From: Candidatus Aminicenantota bacterium
GTDB taxonomy: Bacteria; Acidobacteriota; Aminicenantia; S016-38
Reading direction: 5' to 3'
Length of the DNA stretch: 38,268 nt
Assembly (NCBI GenBank): GCA_026991555.1
Contig: JALXBI010000106.1
Location: 1 to 38,268, forward strand
Position numbers and translations under genes: made by a program. Below are positions 3,490 to 11,802 of the stretch, in pieces; the stretch's first letter is position 1; each line of letters opens with the position of its first letter. Under the pieces are notes generated by a model. It was not told the origin of the DNA. It saw only the letters and a program-made list of their open reading frames with translations, and searched no databases.

Positions 3490-4341
3490 ATGGGCTTAAC
3501 CTCAGGAGAAAAAGAGGATTACCTCATTGAAATTTTTATTTCCAGGAAAATTCGCCTTATATCCGCTCTGACACTTGCTTTAGCCCTCGTCAGTTTTTCC
3601 AAGGCAGCAGAGGCCAGAGTCCCAGCGAACGTTCCCCCTCCAATAAAGATCGCAGAGAAAGGCTCTTCCTCCTTCCTCAGCAGGGTCCTTTCCCACATAG
3701 TAATCTCAGGCGGAAGCTACTCCACCTTCAAGACCTTCGTCAACGAGTGGGTCCAGTACACAGGGACAAACCCGGAAAGGGAGTTTCAGAACACAGAGCC
3801 TTGGCACAACTCCTACCAGGGATGGTTCGCTGAGGCCGGACTGAGAATAGGTCCCATATCCATCAAGGTAGGGCAGAGCAGAGCACAGTTTACCCCAGAG
3901 ATACAGCGCTTCTTCCTCGAAAACCCCACAAGGCCGGGCTACGACGTAAAGATCACCCTTCCCACAGTGGACATGCTCTGGAAGGCCGCCTACCTCAAGG
4001 TGGAGTTTCAGCTGTTCAGAGAAAAAACCCTGGTACCTTTCATAGCCGCAACCTTCCCAATAAGTCAGAGCATGAAAACCCTGGACTACAACTCAAGCCC
4101 CCTAGTGGAAAGAGAACTCCCCCTAAACCCTAAGTTCCAGGACTTTGACATAGAAAACTTCAACAACATGGAAATCCCCGTAAAGCTCAGCTATACAGTA
4201 GAGGGGGGATTTGGGCTTCGCCTCTGGAAGAGGTTTAGAGCACGGGTATGGGTAAGATACGCCCCCTACGAGTGGGATATTTTCTACTACCACTACCGAC
4301 ACGACCCTATAAGCGTGGGGGCAGGTGCTGGAATATACTAG
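3490..4341 (+). CDS. exported beta-barrel-like protein, function unknown
   Basis: About 283 aa when started at the ATG at 3490, which has a strong AAGGAGGAG site five bases upstream; an in-frame upstream ATG at 3433 has no ribosome site. A signal segment (RLISALTLALALVSFSKAAEA) follows a charged N-terminus of about 20 residues. The mature protein has regular amphipathic strands (WFAEAGLRIGPISIKVGQS, VKLSYTVEGGFGLRLWKRF, ARVWVRYAPYEWDIFYYHY) and ends GAGAGIY, typical of an outer-membrane barrel ending in an aromatic residue. It is 13 bases ahead of the large secreted gene at 4355, so the two are probably co-transcribed and may form an exported pair. No family was recognised. Confidence 0.68.
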   Translation: MGLTSGEKEDYLIEIFISRKIRLISALTLALALVSFSKAAEARVPANVPPPIKIAEKGSSSFLSRVLSHIVISGGSYSTFKTFVNEWVQYTGTNPEREFQNTEPWHNSYQGWFAEAGLRIGPISIKVGQSRAQFTPEIQRFFLENPTRPGYDVKITLPTVDMLWKAAYLKVEFQLFREKTLVPFIAATFPISQSMKTLDYNSSPLVERELPLNPKFQDFDIENFNNMEIPVKLSYTVEGGFGLRLWKRFRARVWVRYAPYEWDIFYYHYRHDPISVGAGAGIY

Positions 4342-4354
4342 AGGGAGGTGAGCT

Positions 4355-6109
4355 TTGAGGAAAACAGCCGCATTCCTTATAGGGGCATGGCTTGTCCTTG
4401 CGGCAGGTCTTCCCCCTGAGGTGAAGAAAGCCTCCAGGGAGGGGTTTCTCCACACCGCAGGGGCAGAGAAGGGATGGGAAAGCCCCCAGAGGGTACCCCT
4501 TGCCTACGTCAGGGAGGGGCTTCGCCTTGCCTACGGAAGAGGAGTAAAAACCATCTGGGCCATATCTGACCCTGAGGGACGCCTTACAGCCTACGGGGTT
4601 GACCTTGAGGCACCGCCTTACGAGAAAAACACCTTCCACGGCATACCGCCTGTAAGGTCCGTCATACTGTCCGCATCCCTTGAGGAGCCTGCCTTCACAG
4701 CCGCCTTCTCTGTCCCCATAGAGTCGCTCTTCTCCTGCCCACAGCCCGAACAGCTGGTCCTTGTAAGAAAGTTCGCCCTGGTGAGCCGCTGTGGGGACAG
4801 CTGGCGCCTGGGAAGGGAAAAGCTCACCGCCTCCTGGGTAAAGCGCTTCGCCTACCGCTCCCCCCTGAAGGCAAAGCCTGGACCCGTAAAGATAAGCAGA
4901 ACTTGGGATGCCCTCCTGAGGGCAGAAGCCTCCTCCAGCGGAGTGATAGTCATGCCTGAGTTCGATGCCGTATGGCCGATAGACCACAACGAAACCTGGG
5001 GGATAAAGGGGATAACTCCATCAGAAAATCACAACTGTGGAGCATATAAGTACTACAACTTCACCGGTTCTGTTATTGTGCTCGGCGGGGTTATGGCCTC
5101 TGCGGCAAGGCTTATCTGGAAGGGAGAAAAGTACACCTTCAAGCCAGCTGTGGTGCAGTACGAAGAAAGAGGCTCTCCTGCTCCTAAAGAGATAAATTAC
5201 TGGGAACCCACGCACACCTTCTACTGCGTGCACTGGGTCCCTGCAGGGGTTATGACCGACTATCCTGAGATGACCTGCGAGAAGGAGTCCAAGGTTAATC
5301 CTCTGTGGTGGGGCGGATACCTTACCCCCATCGCCAGGAAGACCATAATTCCCTACGACTACTGGAAGTTTGCAGAAAGGAACGCAGAGGTTTATAAGAG
5401 CAGCAGAAGGTACACCACCACCTGGGCAAGCATTTTCGTTCCTCTCTTCAACAGCTACGGAAGGTTCGTCTATGAAAACAGCGTCCGCCCACCCTTCGTA
5501 AGGGATATAGGAAGAGAAGCAGCCCGCCCCCTCTGGTACAGGTACTTCAAGGAGAGGCTCCTTAAAAGAGCTCTTTTTGTAGAAGCAGCCTACGAGGGAG
5601 TTACTCCCGCAGGTTATCCAGGTTTTGTTGCTCCTGGCCCGCTTCCTGCTGGATGGGACGATGCTAAGTCCCTAATAGCGGTTTTTGCTCCTGAAGGTGC
5701 CTGGATGATCGGGGGGCCTTCAGGAGGCTACATAGTTCCCCCGGGCTACACATGGATAGCCCCTGAGCTTCTCGGTACAGATCCCCCTGGCTGGGTTTAT
5801 CCTCCCTCTGAGTTCGTGAACTCTCCCCCTGCTGTCTCTTTCCCCACCAGGGTAATAGTGAGGGAAGGGGAAGAGTTTACCCTCAAGGCAGATACCCACT
5901 GGGACAGGGAAGGGGAAAAGATAACCTGGGAGGTTGAGGACTCCCCTTTTACCGTGGTGGAAAAGAAGGACTGGTCCCTTACCCTGGTTGCGGACCTTCC
6001 TGAGAACCACTACGTTGTCTGGATAAAGTACACCGATGGGCACAGAGCAGTGCACCACCCCGTGGTGGTGTACGTTGCTCCAACTTATAAATTCGGAGAG
6101 GGAAAATGA
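4355..6109 (+). CDS. large secreted protein with C-terminal Ig/cadherin-like domain
   Basis: A 584-aa exported protein started at TTG 4355, six bases after GGGAGGTGAG. The signal peptide is MRKTAAFLIGAWLVLAAG. The body (about 25-480) is rich in Trp, Tyr and Pro with scattered Cys and matches no family I recognise. From about residue 488 the segment beginning NSPPAVSFPTRVIV and containing VREGEEFTLKA and WEVEDSPF has the look of an Ig-like or cadherin-like beta-sandwich (inference). It is coupled to the 3490 barrel gene and followed after 45 bases by a truncated gene with a similar TTG start and signal segment (6155), so this was probably at least a three-gene secretion cluster. Possible roles include a surface-layer or adhesion protein; none can be shown. 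Confidence 0.7.
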   Translation: MRKTAAFLIGAWLVLAAGLPPEVKKASREGFLHTAGAEKGWESPQRVPLAYVREGLRLAYGRGVKTIWAISDPEGRLTAYGVDLEAPPYEKNTFHGIPPVRSVILSASLEEPAFTAAFSVPIESLFSCPQPEQLVLVRKFALVSRCGDSWRLGREKLTASWVKRFAYRSPLKAKPGPVKISRTWDALLRAEASSSGVIVMPEFDAVWPIDHNETWGIKGITPSENHNCGAYKYYNFTGSVIVLGGVMASAARLIWKGEKYTFKPAVVQYEERGSPAPKEINYWEPTHTFYCVHWVPAGVMTDYPEMTCEKESKVNPLWWGGYLTPIARKTIIPYDYWKFAERNAEVYKSSRRYTTTWASIFVPLFNSYGRFVYENSVRPPFVRDIGREAARPLWYRYFKERLLKRALFVEAAYEGVTPAGYPGFVAPGPLPAGWDDAKSLIAVFAPEGAWMIGGPSGGYIVPPGYTWIAPELLGTDPPGWVYPPSEFVNSPPAVSFPTRVIVREGEEFTLKADTHWDREGEKITWEVEDSPFTVVEKKDWSLTLVADLPENHYVVWIKYTDGHRAVHHPVVVYVAPTYKFGEGK

Positions 6110-6628: not shown

Positions 6629-6644
6629 CTTTCATGAGATGAAA
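6608..6644 (+). promoter_or_regulatory. pair of palindromic operators over promoter and start codon
   Basis: TTTCAC-GCC-GTGAAA (6608-6622) and TTTCAT-GAG-ATGAAA (6630-6644) share the pattern TTTCAY-N3-RTGAAA. Their centres are 22 bp apart, two helical turns, so two dimers would bind the same face. The first fills the -35/-10 spacer and the second covers the ATG at 6639. Confidence 0.55.
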
Positions 6645-7859
6645 AAAATTGACTACAAACCAAGGTGGCTTGCCCTTGCCTTGAGGCAGGCTCTTGCTTT
6701 GATGGAGGAAGGTGCCGTATCCGTAATAACCCTCACAGGACCGCGCCAGAGCGGAAAAACAACTTTGGTAAGAAACGAGCCTCCCTTCAGCAGATGGCAC
6801 TATATAAACCTTGATAACCTGGAGACCTTAGCAGTTGCCCACAGGGAGCCGGATGCTCTTTTCACTAAGGAAAAGAATGTGGTTATAGATGAAATCCAGA
6901 GGGCTCCTAAGCTTCTTCTTAAGGTAAAAGAGCTTGCAGACATGGAGGGCTACCGCTTTCTTCTTACGGGATCTGCGAATCTTCTGCTTTTAAGGAAGGT
7001 GAGCGAAAGCCTGGCAGGAAGAACAGCTATCTTCTATCTTGCCCCGTTTTCCTCCAGGGAGTGGGCAGGGAAAGGGCCGGGCCTTCTCTTGAAGGTGGTA
7101 AAGGGCGAAGAGCCTTCTGAGGGGGAAACAGAGGAATTTTATCCCTTAGAAAGAAGGCTGACAGAGGGTTCCATGCCCCCTGCTCTTCTCCTGAGCAGCG
7201 GACACCGCCTTTGGTGGGAAGGGTATGTAAGGACATACTTGGAGAGGGATTTGAGGGACATTTCCTCCATATCCAACCTTTGGGATTTTCACAGGCTCCT
7301 TGAGTTTTTAGCCTTTATGAGCGGCGGACTTCTGGAGGAGGCTTCCCTTGCAAGAAGGGTAGGCATAAGCCCAGCTACAGTTCACAGGTGGATAAACCTG
7401 TTGGAGGCTTCTTTTATACTGCATAAACTGCCTCCCTTTTTAAAGAGCAGAAAGGCGAGGCTTTGGAAAAGGCCCAAGGTTTACCTTGTGGACCCGGCCT
7501 TGAGCTTTCACCTTATGGGAACAGCTCCTAAAAAGCTCAGCCAAGAGGAATGGGGAAGGCTCTTTGAAAACTTCGTGTTCCTTCAGCTTCACGCTCTGTG
7601 CTCCTCCTTTGGAGGGAGGCTTTTTTACTGGAGGATAGCAGAGATACCTGAGAAGGAAGTTGATTTTATCTGGGAATACGAGGGAGAAATAATCCCCATT
7701 GAGGCAAAGTACAAGGAAAAGCTGAGTCCTGCTGATGCCGAGGGAATTCTCCGCTTCTGCAGGGAGCAGCCCTGCCGTGTGGGAATCATAGTTTACAGGG
7801 GGAAAAGGATATACGAGGTTCTAAAGAACATCTGGGCTGTGCCTGTGTGGGAAATTTGA
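6639..7859 (+). CDS. DUF4143-type AAA ATPase (COG1373 family)
   Basis: A 406-aa ATPase of the AAA_14/DUF4143 family. The Walker A motif is GPRQSGKT (34-41), Walker B is VVIDEIQ (81-87) and sensor-1 is FLLTGSANLLLL. A winged-helix-like piece, LARRVGISPATVHRWINLLE, lies in the middle, and the C-terminal part (VDFIWEYEGEIIPIEAKY) has the E-V-D-F ... E-A-K signature of a PD-(D/E)XK-like nuclease fold. These ATPases are widespread in accessory DNA; their cellular role is poorly defined. Its promoter carries two palindromes. It lies inside the segment bracketed by the 96-bp repeats and converges on hicA. Family assignment is firm; function is not. Confidence 0.9.
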   Translation: MKKIDYKPRWLALALRQALALMEEGAVSVITLTGPRQSGKTTLVRNEPPFSRWHYINLDNLETLAVAHREPDALFTKEKNVVIDEIQRAPKLLLKVKELADMEGYRFLLTGSANLLLLRKVSESLAGRTAIFYLAPFSSREWAGKGPGLLLKVVKGEEPSEGETEEFYPLERRLTEGSMPPALLLSSGHRLWWEGYVRTYLERDLRDISSISNLWDFHRLLEFLAFMSGGLLEEASLARRVGISPATVHRWINLLEASFILHKLPPFLKSRKARLWKRPKVYLVDPALSFHLMGTAPKKLSQEEWGRLFENFVFLQLHALCSSFGGRLFYWRIAEIPEKEVDFIWEYEGEIIPIEAKYKEKLSPADAEGILRFCREQPCRVGIIVYRGKRIYEVLKNIWAVPVWEI

Positions 7860-7890: not shown

Positions 7891-8097
7891 TCACAGTTCC
7901 TCTTCGCTAATCCCCGCTATTTTCAAGAAATATTTGAGAAGCCCTCTTTTAAGAGGTTTGTTTCCGTGAACTGGAACGGAGATTTTTATACTGGTGCCCT
8001 TCTTGCCATAAATGTGATGGCTTCCTTTTATTCTCTCAAGCTCCCATCCCTTTTTTCTCAATATTTTCCCGAATTCTTTACCGGAAATCTGCTTCAT
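7891..8097 (-). CDS. hicA: HicA-family mRNA interferase toxin
   Basis: A 68-aa protein of the HicA/YcfA family, a small dsRNA-binding-like fold that cleaves mRNA when free of its antitoxin. The family features are present: ISGKEFGKILRKKGWELERIKGSHHIY with the catalytic His in GSHH, then KISVPVHGNKPLKRGLLKYFLK. Full length for the family. Its ATG overlaps the TGA of hicB by four bases (8094-8097), so translation is coupled and the antitoxin gene comes first, an arrangement found in many HicBA loci. No truncation is seen, so the toxin is probably functional. Confidence 0.93.
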   Translation of the reverse strand: MKQISGKEFGKILRKKGWELERIKGSHHIYGKKGTSIKISVPVHGNKPLKRGLLKYFLKIAGISEEEL

Positions 8098-8303
8098 ACA
8101 GCTATTTCTATTATTTTGGCTTCTTTAGGGAGAACTTTATCCTGAGACTCTGCCCTGGCTTCCAGGTATCCTTCTATCGCTTCATAGAGATTCTTCAAGA
8201 GGTCTTCAAAGGTTTCACCCTGAGTGGCACACCCCGGAAGAGCAGGGACTTCTGCCCAATACCCTCCTTCTTCCGCTTTGTGCACTATTACTTTTATTTT
8301 CAT
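8094..8303 (-). CDS. hicB: HicB-family antitoxin
   Basis: A 69-aa HicB antitoxin: KIKVIVHKAEEGGYWAEVPALPGC and then TQGETFEDLLKNLYEAIEGYLEA, the partial RNase-H-like fold that binds and neutralises HicA. It is the short form without a C-terminal DNA-binding domain, so autoregulation through its own HTH or ribbon-helix-helix is not evident. AAGGAGGG lies just before the ATG. The operon is preceded by a TGTTATAAT extended -10 element. The pair lies inside the repeat-bracketed segment and could help keep it in the genome (inference). Confidence 0.93.
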   Translation of the reverse strand: MKIKVIVHKAEEGGYWAEVPALPGCATQGETFEDLLKNLYEAIEGYLEARAESQDKVLPKEAKIIEIAV

Positions 8304-8335: not shown

Positions 8336-8616
8336 TTCTTATTAGAGCATTTTGGGGATTCTTCTCGGGGAGTTTTTTATAATCTGATTCAGTTTTTACC
8401 CTGTTCTTTCCTTTGCGGAGGATTGGGAAGGATCCTCTTCCCCATTGAAAGAAAGTTAAACTTCTCACATTTTTGTGGATTTCCCTGTGGTCGAATTTCC
8501 AGGTTTCTTCTTGTTTTCTCCTTTCCCTGCACTGGGATTGTGCAGTTTAACGGGGTCCATAAAAAGGGTCTGTCCCCAATTTGGGTCCATAAAAAGGGTC
8601 TGTCCCCAATTTGGCT
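8336..8616. other. non-coding stretch with hairpins and repeats
   Basis: No convincing gene lies between hicB and the right copy of the 96-bp repeat. It contains the inverted repeats GGGAAG-GATCCT-CTTCCC (8425-8442) and CTGCAC-TGGGATT-GTGCAG (8527-8545), then two tandem 30-bp repeats ending four bases before the 96-bp copy. An ORF reading through from 8423 is judged an artefact of the repeats. Confidence 0.6.
8553..8612 (+). repeat. tandem pair of 30-bp repeats
   Basis: Two perfect 30-bp copies (8553-8582, 8583-8612). Each unit starts GGGTCCATAAAAAGGG and ends TCTGTCCCCAATTT, and contains the GGGTCTGTCCC core of the dispersed repeat family. They abut the right 96-bp copy, marking a likely rearrangement joint. 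Confidence 0.9.
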
Positions 8617-8712: not shown

Positions 8713-8767
8713 GACGGTTGAGGAGTATCTAAGGGAAGTTGTTTCTGATATTAACACTGCTTGTTGA
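8617..8767 (+). pseudogene. 3' part of the interrupted small antitoxin-like gene
   Basis: This fragment encodes RKVIERLLADRDFMEEL, continues as in the left copy, and then has the ending SRTVEEYLREVVSDINTAC before TGA. It lacks a start codon of its own; the 5' part is at 6277-6440. The frame matches the left copy exactly. The -35 box of the next operon (8764-8769) overlaps its stop codon. Confidence 0.65.
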
Positions 8768-8792
8768 CAATTTCAAATTTAGTACCTAAGAT
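8764..8792 (+). promoter_or_regulatory. strong promoter of the YidD operon
   Basis: TTGACA (8764-8769), 17-base spacer, TAAGAT (8787-8792). The -35 overlaps the stop codon of the preceding ORF fragment. A 10-bp direct repeat TTCAAATTTA occurs in the spacer (8772-8781) and again 33 bp downstream (8805-8814), a possible operator pair spaced by about three helical turns. Confidence 0.65.
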
Positions 8793-8830
8793 ATTCAATA
8801 GAACTTCAAATTTATGAGTAGGAGGTTTCG

Positions 8831-9241
8831 ATGAGAAAGGCTTTAGTTCTTTTGTTAGCCTTGTCTCTTATTGGATTGCCTGCTATGGCTCAGTCCCAAA
8901 CCACCTACATGTCAAGCAAAGACTACACTGAGGGCAGACTGGATGGGGAGGCTGACGCTACAGGAAACCAGATATGGTTGTTGGGAGGATGTTTGCTCGG
9001 TGTGGTGGGGGTTCTTTTGGCCTATGTGATTGAGCCAGAAGTTCCTTCCGGAAGGCTTATAGGGAAGAGCCCAGCCTATATTCAGGGGTATACCGAAGGA
9101 TACAAGTCTGCTACTAAAAGGAAAAATGCTATGTATGCCCTTTACGGAATGTTAGCTTGGTTGGTGTTCTTGATAGTGTATTATGTAGCAGTAATAGCAG
9201 CAGTATCCTCTGCCACATATTTAGCCCCCTCCGGCTATTGA
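8831..9241 (+). CDS. exported/membrane protein, first gene of the YidD operon
   Basis: A 136-aa protein with a signal peptide (LVLLLALSLIGLPAMA), then a hydrophilic DYTEGRLDGEADA motif, a membrane span (IWLLGGCLLGVVGVLLAYVI), a second polar motif (SPAYIQGYTEGYKSATKRK) and a C-terminal span (ALYGMLAWLVFLIVYYVAV). The two YTEG-type motifs may be internal repeats. A good AGGAGG site precedes the ATG and a strong promoter lies at 8764-8792. It overlaps the next gene in a TTGA stop/start. No named family was recognised; position suggests a partner of YidD and the downstream envelope proteins. Confidence 0.78.
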   Translation: MRKALVLLLALSLIGLPAMAQSQTTYMSSKDYTEGRLDGEADATGNQIWLLGGCLLGVVGVLLAYVIEPEVPSGRLIGKSPAYIQGYTEGYKSATKRKNAMYALYGMLAWLVFLIVYYVAVIAAVSSATYLAPSGY

Positions 9242-9867
9242 AGGTTCTGTTTCTTATATTAGCTTTTTTTCCTTTTGTTCGCTTCCAAGTGGATTTTTTA
9301 AAAGTAAGGGGAGGGGAACGAATCGGGGGTACAGTGTATTTCTCCCCTCCACGGCTCATCATAGAGGTAAAAAGTCCGGTTCATCAAATAGTAAAATTCA
9401 GCGAAAAAAGATTATTGTTATATTATCCTGAAAGAAATCAGGCCTTTGAAATAATTTCTGCCACTGTTAATGCTCCTCCTTTCTGGGAGCTTTTTCTTCT
9501 TCCTTCCCAGAAAGGCTATTTTTTGGGAAAGGGATTCCGCCTTTCAGAAGACAAAGGAAGTTTTCGTAAATATTTACCTCCTCCTTCGATAAAATCAGTG
9601 GATTATTTGCGAGTTTTTTACGATAAGAAAAATCGACCTTTTAAAATTCTCTCATACAAGGGGAAGAAGCTCGTGAGAACGGTCGTTTATCAAGATTTTA
9701 AGGAATACTGGGGTTTTCCTTTTCCCAGCAAAATTTTTATATCTTTCTCTAAGGGCAAGGAGGAAGTATACTTTTCTCATTTTGTTTTTAACGGTAAATT
9801 TCCCCAATGGGTTGAAAATTTCAGTCTCCCAAAGGGGGTAAGGATAAAAAGGGAGGTTCTCCGTTGA
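9238..9867 (+). CDS. exported LolA-like protein
   Basis: A 209-aa protein read from TTG 9238, which overlaps the upstream stop as TTGA and gives a clean signal segment (MKVLFLILAFFPFVRFQ); a longer in-frame reading from 9157 would overlap the upstream gene heavily. The rest is almost all beta strand: GERIGGTVYFSPPRLIIEV, VKFSEKRLLLYYPERNQAFEI, FYDKKNRPFKILSYKGK, WGFPFPSKIFISFSKGKE. This order of strands, with a 'line the lipid' apolar cup, resembles the LolA/LolB lipoprotein-carrier fold (inference; sequence similarity is weak). It sits directly before yidD with coupled translation, suggesting a periplasmic role in lipoprotein or membrane-protein handling. Confidence 0.65.
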   Translation: MKVLFLILAFFPFVRFQVDFLKVRGGERIGGTVYFSPPRLIIEVKSPVHQIVKFSEKRLLLYYPERNQAFEIISATVNAPPFWELFLLPSQKGYFLGKGFRLSEDKGSFRKYLPPPSIKSVDYLRVFYDKKNRPFKILSYKGKKLVRTVVYQDFKEYWGFPFPSKIFISFSKGKEEVYFSHFVFNGKFPQWVENFSLPKGVRIKREVLR

Positions 9868-10238
9868 AATGGGCGTTTTTTTTGTTGCTTCCATTAATGA
9901 CCTGGGCTTCAGAAGCACAATGGTTATTAAATCGCTGGAAAAGCGGTCCTCCGCATTCTACCTTAATCTACCAAGGGGAATTAAAGATAGGCTTCTTGTT
10001 TTTGATGAGATTCTACAAAGGTTTTATTTCCCCAAATGATAGCCATACATGTAATTTTACATTGTCCTGTTCTGCCTTTTCTCTCAGGGCTGTGGAAAAG
10101 TTTGGGTTGCTTAAGGGATTACTCCTTACTTCAGATAGGCTTCAAAGGTGTATTTACTGGGCAAGGGAATACTATCCTTTGGATTTTAAAACAGGGTTGG
10201 CTATAGATTATCCTCTTTCTTGGTATAATTTAAGATGA
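9864..10238 (+). CDS. yidD: YidD-domain membrane protein insertion factor with N-terminal extension
   Basis: A 124-aa protein. The YidD core is at about 44-108: FLMRFYKGFISP, then CNFTLSCSAFSLRAVEKFG and a third Cys in DRLQRC (Cys63, 69, 96), the family's conserved Cys pattern. Canonical YidD is a short amphipathic peripheral protein of about 70-85 aa that helps YidC-dependent membrane insertion; here a signal-like N-terminus (MKWAFFLLLPLMTWA) and about 25 extra residues precede it, which would place it outside the inner membrane if cleaved (inference). Start is TTG 9864, overlapping the upstream TGA; its own stop overlaps the ATG of the next gene. There is no yidC, rnpA or rpmH next door, unlike the classical context. 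Confidence 0.85.
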   Translation: MKWAFFLLLPLMTWASEAQWLLNRWKSGPPHSTLIYQGELKIGFLFLMRFYKGFISPNDSHTCNFTLSCSAFSLRAVEKFGLLKGLLLTSDRLQRCIYWAREYYPLDFKTGLAIDYPLSWYNLR

Positions 10239-11020
10239 AAAAGCTTATAGTAATTATGCTCCTTGTTTTCCCGAGCCTTGGGCTTAATATGTTTTCACCT
10301 AAGAATATTTTAAATTTTGCCGACTTTCTTTACGAACAAAAGGATTATTTGAGAGCCAGTGGAGAATATTTAAGGTATTTGTATGGTGGTGGGAAAAAGA
10401 GAAAATATGCGTGGAAAATGGCTATCTGGTCTCTGTACAAAGCAAATGAGGCACAAAAGGCTTGGCAATTGAGCCAAAGGGCTCTTCAAGAGTTTCCCCA
10501 TGATTGCGAAATTGGTGCGATGGCAGTACTTATGGGAGCTTTAAGCGGAGAGGGAAAACCTGAACCTTCCCAATGTGGCTTGATCCAGCAGGCTAATGCT
10601 TTTTTTTGGGTTCGCCAGGGAAGATGGCTTGAAGCAGAAAAGGAATTGAAAACCTCTTCCCCCTTTTCCTTTTTTTTGAAAAAAGAAATAGAGAAAAGGA
10701 AAAAATTGGGCTGGAAATCCCCCTGGAAAGCGGCTTTTCTCTCTGCAATTTTGCCTGGAAGCGGTAAAATTTATGCTGGGAGATGGAAGGAAGGTGTTTA
10801 TTCTCTGTTTCTGGTGGGAGTAAGTGGATGGCAGGCCTGGAGAAAGTTTCGCCAAGGTAAGAAAGGGTGGGGATACTTTTATGCCGGAATGAGTCTTTTC
10901 TTTTATGTTGGTAATATATACGGTTCTGCTGTGGCAGCTAAAATTTACAACCGTGTATGGGATATGCAGATAAATAGGGAAATAATCATAGCTTTTCCCA
11001 TGGTTTTCGGTATAAGATGA
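10235..11020 (+). CDS. TPR-like protein with C-terminal PG-YAG membrane domain, copy A
   Basis: A 261-aa protein. It starts with a signal segment (MKKLIVIMLLVFPSLG) and then helical TPR-like repeats (ADFLYEQKDYLRASGEYLRYL ... AYAWKM-type pairs, residues about 25-150). From about 165 comes a hydrophobic domain: AAFLSAILPGSGKIYAGRWKEG, two or three membrane segments, and YVGNIYGSAVAAKIYNR. The LPGxGxxYAG-W/K-G motif is shared with the next gene, showing common ancestry. The two ORFs overlap as ATGA, as does the junction with yidD. I recognise this PG-YAG domain as a family often found near yidD in Gram-negative genomes but have no assigned function for it. Confidence 0.78.
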   Translation: MKKLIVIMLLVFPSLGLNMFSPKNILNFADFLYEQKDYLRASGEYLRYLYGGGKKRKYAWKMAIWSLYKANEAQKAWQLSQRALQEFPHDCEIGAMAVLMGALSGEGKPEPSQCGLIQQANAFFWVRQGRWLEAEKELKTSSPFSFFLKKEIEKRKKLGWKSPWKAAFLSAILPGSGKIYAGRWKEGVYSLFLVGVSGWQAWRKFRQGKKGWGYFYAGMSLFFYVGNIYGSAVAAKIYNRVWDMQINREIIIAFPMVFGIR

Positions 11021-11802
11021 ACGCTCTTTTTTTCATAATGCTTTCTCTTTCTATAAGCAATTGGGGTGATTTTTATTATCAAAACAAATATTGCTTTCAA
11101 GCCATAACTGAATACAAGAGAATCCTTTATTTTTACCCTCACCATACTCGCAGAGGGGAAATGCTTTATAGAATAGGTAAATGCCTCAGGGAAGAGGGAA
11201 AACCTCGTCAAGCGCTCCAATACTTTAAGCTTTCTATGGCAGAGGGTTATCCTAAGGCCTTTCTTTCCTGCGGCGTAACTCTTTTAGGATTGGGCGAATG
11301 GGGGGCAGCGGAGAGCCTTCTTTCTTATTCTACTAATATACCAGAAATACGAAGTGATGCCAGGTTTTTCCACGCTATAAGTTTGATCTTATTAGGAAAA
11401 TACCAGAGGGCGAAGCAAGAATTAAAAGGTGTTTTAGGAAAAGATGGGATAGAGGTTTATGCACGGCTTGAAAAACTTTTACATTGGCCTTCACCTGAAA
11501 AGGCCAAGATACTCTCTTCCCTAATTCCAGGTTTGGGACAGGCCTATGCTGGAAGCGGGAAGGATGCTCTTGGGGGAGCTATTACCGGGTTTCTTCCATT
11601 AGCTCTTTTAGTAATGCACTGGACGGAAGGGGACTATATTACCATTATAATCCAGGATTTCCCGATTTTTTTCAGGTATTATAGAGGTGGAATGATAAGA
11701 GCGGCCCAATTAGTTCAGGAAAGAAGGGAAAAGTTCTCACTAAAAACTGCTGTCCTGGCTCTGGAAAAATGGAAAAGTAAGCACTCTACTCCAGAAAAAT
11801 GA
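11017..11802 (+). CDS. TPR-like protein with C-terminal PG-YAG membrane domain, copy B
   Basis: A 261-aa paralogue of the preceding gene, of the same length. A short hydrophobic start (ALFFIMLSLSIS) is followed by TPR-like helices (YYQNKYCFQAITEYKRILYF, LYRIGKCLREEGKPRQALQYF) to about residue 150. The C-terminal domain has LSSLIPGLGQAYAGSGKDAL and hydrophobic stretches to RYYRGGMIRAAQLVQERREK. It is the last gene of the operon; a gap of about 140 bases follows with no clear hairpin terminator. It probably forms a complex or acts in sequence with copy A in the envelope (inference). Confidence 0.78.
   Translation: MNALFFIMLSLSISNWGDFYYQNKYCFQAITEYKRILYFYPHHTRRGEMLYRIGKCLREEGKPRQALQYFKLSMAEGYPKAFLSCGVTLLGLGEWGAAESLLSYSTNIPEIRSDARFFHAISLILLGKYQRAKQELKGVLGKDGIEVYARLEKLLHWPSPEKAKILSSLIPGLGQAYAGSGKDALGGAITGFLPLALLVMHWTEGDYITIIIQDFPIFFRYYRGGMIRAAQLVQERREKFSLKTAVLALEKWKSKHSTPEK

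Follow-up and report, generated by a model that had tools for sequence, protein, structure and literature searches.

The window analysed here is a stretch of 38,268 nucleotides from a Candidatus Aminicenantota bacterium (contig JALXBI010000106.1, assembly GCA_026991555.1), and it carries a five-gene module built around a second, diverged YidD that bears an export-type N-terminus and is linked, or in some genomes fused, to an exported tetratricopeptide repeat (TPR) protein. The five co-directional open reading frames (ORFs) on the + strand between positions 8831 and 11802 encode, in order, a hairpin-type membrane protein (g1), a LolA-like protein, the exported YidD homologue (YidD2) and two TPR proteins (TPR1 and TPR2); all five have export-type N-termini, which are kept in their orthologues. 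YidD is a small helper in membrane protein insertion, normally cytoplasmic and common among bacteria, and we know of no agreed mechanism for it. In the passages of PMC3573977 that cite Yu et al. 2011, Escherichia coli YidD is reported to help YidC insert inner membrane proteins. The original prediction, made from this DNA alone, had read the products as an exported two-motif membrane protein, a LolA-like exported protein, a YidD with an N-terminal signal extension lying outside its usual rnpA/yidC setting, and two TPR proteins with a PG-YAG motif, and our comparisons agree with each of these descriptions.

The YidD2 gene (9864..10238, + strand, TTG start) encodes 124 residues, of which 44-101 match PF01809 (E 2e-16; 60 bits, cut-off 27), and the protein also scores above the TIGR00278 cut-off (58.4 bits against 40). 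It keeps the three cysteines and the RFYxxFIS amphipathic stretch of canonical YidD, but the motifs differ (CNFxxSCSxF and DRLxRC, present in the window as CNFTLSCSxF and DRLQRC, versus CRFxPTCSxY and KRLxRC), as does the C-terminus; the exported form has an export-type N-terminus and a linker, whereas canonical YidD is short and has no signal peptide, and its gene lies beside or is fused to TPR1 rather than in the rnpA-yidC cluster. YidD2 is an additional paralogue of ordinary YidD, because the window genome also has a canonical copy in an rnpA-yidD-yidC cluster (G000:C64, L036 7498-9581), which holds the usual place while YidD2 sits with export-type proteins. Canonical YidD likewise accompanied the exported form in all nine module genomes checked. 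Every one of 39 exported YidDs has a hydrophobic segment near the N-terminus and a stretch of 53-99 residues ahead of the first conserved cysteine, so that the extension is no stray reading frame. We considered a false extension from a wrongly called TTG start and rejected it, since a similar N-terminus is found in 39 orthologues, many of them with ATG starts. Sequence searches of solved structures with exported and canonical YidD queries gave no relative.

The conserved linkage on which the original prediction had staked itself was found in other genomes. We read 59 exported-YidD loci, of which 39 had been picked up with the LolA-like profile or in the first scans for YidD, a sample biased towards LolA, and 20 were chosen by exported YidD alone and provide the fairer test of linkage. 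TPR1 was adjacent or fused to the exported YidD in 56 of the 59. All 39 loci of the first sample showed the order LolA-YidD2-TPR1, with the LolA-like gene upstream and zero to four g1 genes ahead of it. Among the 20 loci of the second sample, TPR1 was adjacent in 17 and joined to YidD2 as one polypeptide in eight of these (L218-L224 and L232), whereas LolA and g1 were alongside in none. The core is thus YidD2-TPR1-TPR2, with LolA and g1 as an addition; two genomes (G639 and G641) have both forms. The exceptions to the linkage were L228, L235 and L236, in which an exported YidD had no TPR neighbour. About 18 genomes have YidD frames longer than 300 residues, eight of which were read, and Pfam confirms the YidD domain in two of the fusions. 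These single polypeptides are the best evidence that YidD2 and TPR1 are physical partners.

The two TPR genes (TPR1, 10235..11020; TPR2, 11017..11802; both + strand) encode paralogous proteins of 261 residues each that are predicted to be exported. TPR1 ends in a membrane domain with the pattern PGxGxxYAGR...GNIYGSxxAAxxYN, and TPR2 combines its TPR region (TPR_12, E 3e-6) with a PGLGQAYAG...RYYRGG domain. The PG.G..YAG part of both proteins resembles DUF5683 (PF18935), at 21.1 and 18.2 bits for genes 4 and 5, which is below the cut-off of 26.7. A shared PGxGxxYxG motif and sub-threshold DUF5683 and TM2 matches thus place TPR1 and TPR2 near the DUF5683/TM2-like membrane proteins, but they differ from these in carrying a signal peptide and a TPR region ahead of the motif, in forming a paralogous pair and in having a second conserved motif (GNIYGxxxAAxxYN or RFYxGxxxNA).

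The product of the second gene (9238..9867, + strand, TTG start) is a predicted exported carrier of 209 residues that lacks a lipobox cysteine. Its AlphaFold2 model (predicted local distance difference test, pLDDT, 89.2) has a LolA fold: in a Foldseek search of the PDB, LolA structures from several species ranked first (best E 3.6e-9), with 68 matches below 0.001; the hits include the stearic-acid-bound LolA 8t5t. By sequence, the window protein had no Pfam match and reached no curated LolA model at 0.01; its score against TIGR00547 (E 0.2, 11.1 bits) lies far below the cut-off of 112, and 16 of 31 homologues matched that model at E up to 0.01, the best at 3.3e-6. A sequence search of solved structures with the LolA-like query returned nothing. 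The carrier therefore resembles LolA (PF03548, TIGR00547) in its predicted fold, its predicted export and its lack of a lipobox, but differs from it in falling below the curated model and in the linkage of its gene to YidD2 and g1.

The first gene (8831..9241, + strand) encodes g1, with 136 residues, a predicted N-terminal signal and hydrophobic segments at 48-66 and 107-125. Between these lies a conserved LxGKSPxYxxxYTxxYxxxxK loop, and the profile of the family describes a hairpin in which LxGKSPEYVxxYTDxYK is flanked by two hydrophobic segments; comparison with Pfam gave no convincing family. Homologues occur both in tandem, with up to four copies upstream of the machinery, and scattered through genomes, reaching 19 matches per genome in Poribacteria, many of them distant from the operon. 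In the Poribacteria phylum, 61 genomes had both g1 and the LolA-like protein, none had LolA only, four had g1 only and 20 had neither; in a further phylum, possibly WOR-3, represented by 147 genomes, the corresponding counts were 37, 10, 10 and 90. The domain is thus found mainly where the LolA-like gene is present, with 1-19 matches per genome. None of seven searched genomes of the window's class that lack the module had g1. The domain also occurs C-terminal to other exported domains, namely to CsgG (above cut-off, three loci) and to PEGA (one locus), and by eye it follows a CsgG-like region at L241. A Gly/Ser/Cys-rich tail follows the domain in several genomes of the 147-genome phylum, and C-terminal tails of this kind, such as CGSSDGCGGSD, were seen on g1 proteins at L173 and L175-L178. 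At L054 a g1 gene is split over two frames (4085-4453 and 4200-4436), which would make it a pseudogene unless the sequence is in error. A 778-residue frame with a g1 match in G551 was rejected as an overlapping-frame artefact.

From the structure and linkage of these genes we infer that the exported YidD-TPR core, located in the inner membrane, acts with the LolA-like carrier to insert or sort g1-type proteins, a reading that we favour while holding it at slightly less than an even chance. TPR1 and TPR2, as inner-membrane proteins whose TPRs face the periplasm, would hold YidD2 at the periplasmic (outer) face. Once Sec has exported hydrophobic hairpin proteins of the g1 type, this complex would help them to insert, to fold or to depart from the inner membrane, and the LolA-like carrier would ferry these proteins, or just the hydrophobic part of them, through the periplasm. 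Where a genome has only the YidD2-TPR core, the core may serve other clients. Envelope-protein handling, as the original prediction had it, remains the best general description of the putative function. Several observations weigh against the proposed scheme. The core occurs in many genomes with no neighbouring LolA or g1, so that handling g1 cannot be its sole task, and no YidD2 was present in the stretch read at 9 of 40 LolA-profile loci (outside the 59). The case for g1 as a client rests on linkage and co-occurrence, for which the Fisher values of 8e-16 (Poribacteria phylum) and 1e-16 (147-genome phylum) ignore shared ancestry. Signal peptides were called from hydrophobicity rather than by a trained predictor, and the AlphaFold2 model of YidD2 was weak (pLDDT 69.6) and was set aside.

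Other arrangements of the same parts would also account for some of these patterns. It is possible, if rather doubtful, that many exported proteins carry the g1 hairpin as a C-terminal domain for sorting or anchoring, and that an exported YidD-TPR complex with a LolA-fold shuttle is the dedicated machinery by which proteins with this tag are inserted or relocated from the side of the periplasm. PEP-CTERM/exosortase systems are tag-and-machinery sorting systems of this general kind, and as an analogy only they share with g1 a repeated C-terminal membrane domain that is dispersed in the genome and co-occurs with a dedicated gene set; in contrast, g1 is a two-segment hairpin rather than a single helix plus basic tail, and the conserved module genes include no protease or transpeptidase. 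We regard it as similarly doubtful that g1 is a subunit of the machine, forming an inner-membrane complex with TPR1 and TPR2 and a periplasmic YidD2 while the LolA-fold protein moves lipid or another small hydrophobic cargo. A single g1 gene often lies immediately upstream in the same operon, and LolA folds can also bind lipids, as 8t5t illustrates, but the dispersed copies and the CsgG and PEGA fusions suit clients or a tag better and make a fixed-subunit g1 weaker than a client g1.

The module may instead be a diverged branch of lipoprotein sorting, in which the LolA-like protein delivers a special class of lipoproteins, with YidD2 and the TPR proteins as the partners that load it at the inner membrane or receive from it at the outer membrane. 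The predicted LolA fold, the sub-threshold TIGR00547 matches and a g1 fusion at L210 that begins with a lipoprotein-like N-terminus all suit this explanation, but inspection by eye showed no clear lipobox in most g1 proteins and the window carrier reaches no curated LolA model, and we consider it improbable. More improbable still is incomplete export of YidD2, with an uncleaved membrane anchor at the N-terminus and a YidD domain that stays on the cytoplasmic side and aids YidC as usual. Such a placement would fit the helper role reported for E. coli YidD in those same passages of PMC3573977, and the export-type N-terminus was judged by hydrophobicity; however, TPR1 is fused behind that same N-terminus, and YidD2 is partnered with a LolA-fold protein and other exported proteins.

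The distribution of the module was surveyed by scanning for a short variant motif in one genome per species, which located the set in Aminicenantes, Latescibacterota and Poribacteria, as well as in a metagenome-assembled genome of the 147-genome phylum; the order g1(n)-LolA-YidD2-TPR1-(TPR2) is common to these three groups and the further phylum, and is retained between sequences that are mostly 20-45% identical. At 1e-6 the LolA-like profile matched 61 of 85 genomes of the Poribacteria phylum, 47 of 147 of the further phylum and 2 of 64 of the Latescibacterota phylum. In the window's own phylum it matched 36 of 396 at 0.001, with full-length strong matches in the sample only in the window genome and G011; G006, of the same family as the window genome, also carries the module, and three genomes of the same genus lack it. 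The module has a GC content of 40.8%, against 49.5% in the rest of the window; at third codon positions the GC fraction is 0.34-0.47, compared with 0.55-0.65 for four other window genes. A tree built from LolA, YidD2 and TPR1 separates the copies of the window and G006 from that of the Aminicenantes genome G011, which is placed within the 147-genome phylum, with moderate support; this suggests that the whole set was acquired at least twice. Based on the low GC, the patchy presence and the tree, the module seems to spread horizontally as a unit. The original prediction had allowed that the YidD gene might be simply a mobile passenger; we rejected a single passenger, since order and fusions persist between highly diverged copies, but the unit as a whole does seem to be mobile. 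That the operon is a mobile collection of loosely related envelope genes held together by transfer alone and with no joint function is very improbable, and the fusions and the conservation already refute it for the most part: the lower GC, the same-genus absences and the scattered Aminicenantes forms would suit it, but selection for joint action is needed to explain the order kept at such low identity, the eight YidD2-TPR1 fusions and the occurrence in the majority of genomes of one phylum.

All parts of the module are members of known superfamilies. The literature that we searched, which covered YidD with LolA, with YidC and with signal peptide and TPR, as well as DUF5683 and Poribacteria LolA, with most subscription journals outside its scope, has no description of the gene set, of an exported YidD or of the YidD-TPR fusion. 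A conserved set of this kind in several little-studied phyla suggests undescribed envelope-protein handling outside the cytoplasm, and it ties together four uncharacterised protein families found in the majority of Poribacteria-phylum genomes. An exported, TPR-fused YidD would show an activity independent of the cytoplasm, the ribosome and contact with YidC from the inside, and the exported family offers a separable system for finding the role of the YidD domain.

With regard to the layout of the operon, the five ORFs are coupled as originally predicted, with overlaps of four bases at all four junctions (TTGA at 9238 and 9864, ATGA at 10235 and 11017). The fixed stoichiometry that had been read from these overlaps does not follow: about 140 bases separate the g1 and LolA-like genes at L034. 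The claim of one strong promoter stands in part: a candidate sigma-70-type site, TTGACA-N17-TAAGAT (8764..8792, + strand), is the best match of the region (10/12) and plausible, but it is unproven, and the number of promoter-like sites in the region (7) is at the chance level of shuffled sequence (6.4 +/- 2.3). On the 5' side of this site, at about 8554-8614, the window has two tandem copies of a unit of about 30 bases, GGGTCCATAAAAAGGGTCTGTCCCCAATTT. Also 5' of the module are a HicAB-like toxin-antitoxin pair recognised by eye (7891-8303, - strand) and a DUF4143 AAA ATPase matched by Pfam (6639-7859, + strand); toxin-antitoxin pairs and ATPases of this type are typical neighbours of mobile DNA. 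In two Aminicenantes genomes the module is flanked by possible outer-membrane beta-barrel proteins, recognised by eye and predicted to be exported (L033:1271-1753 and L034:1562-2650).

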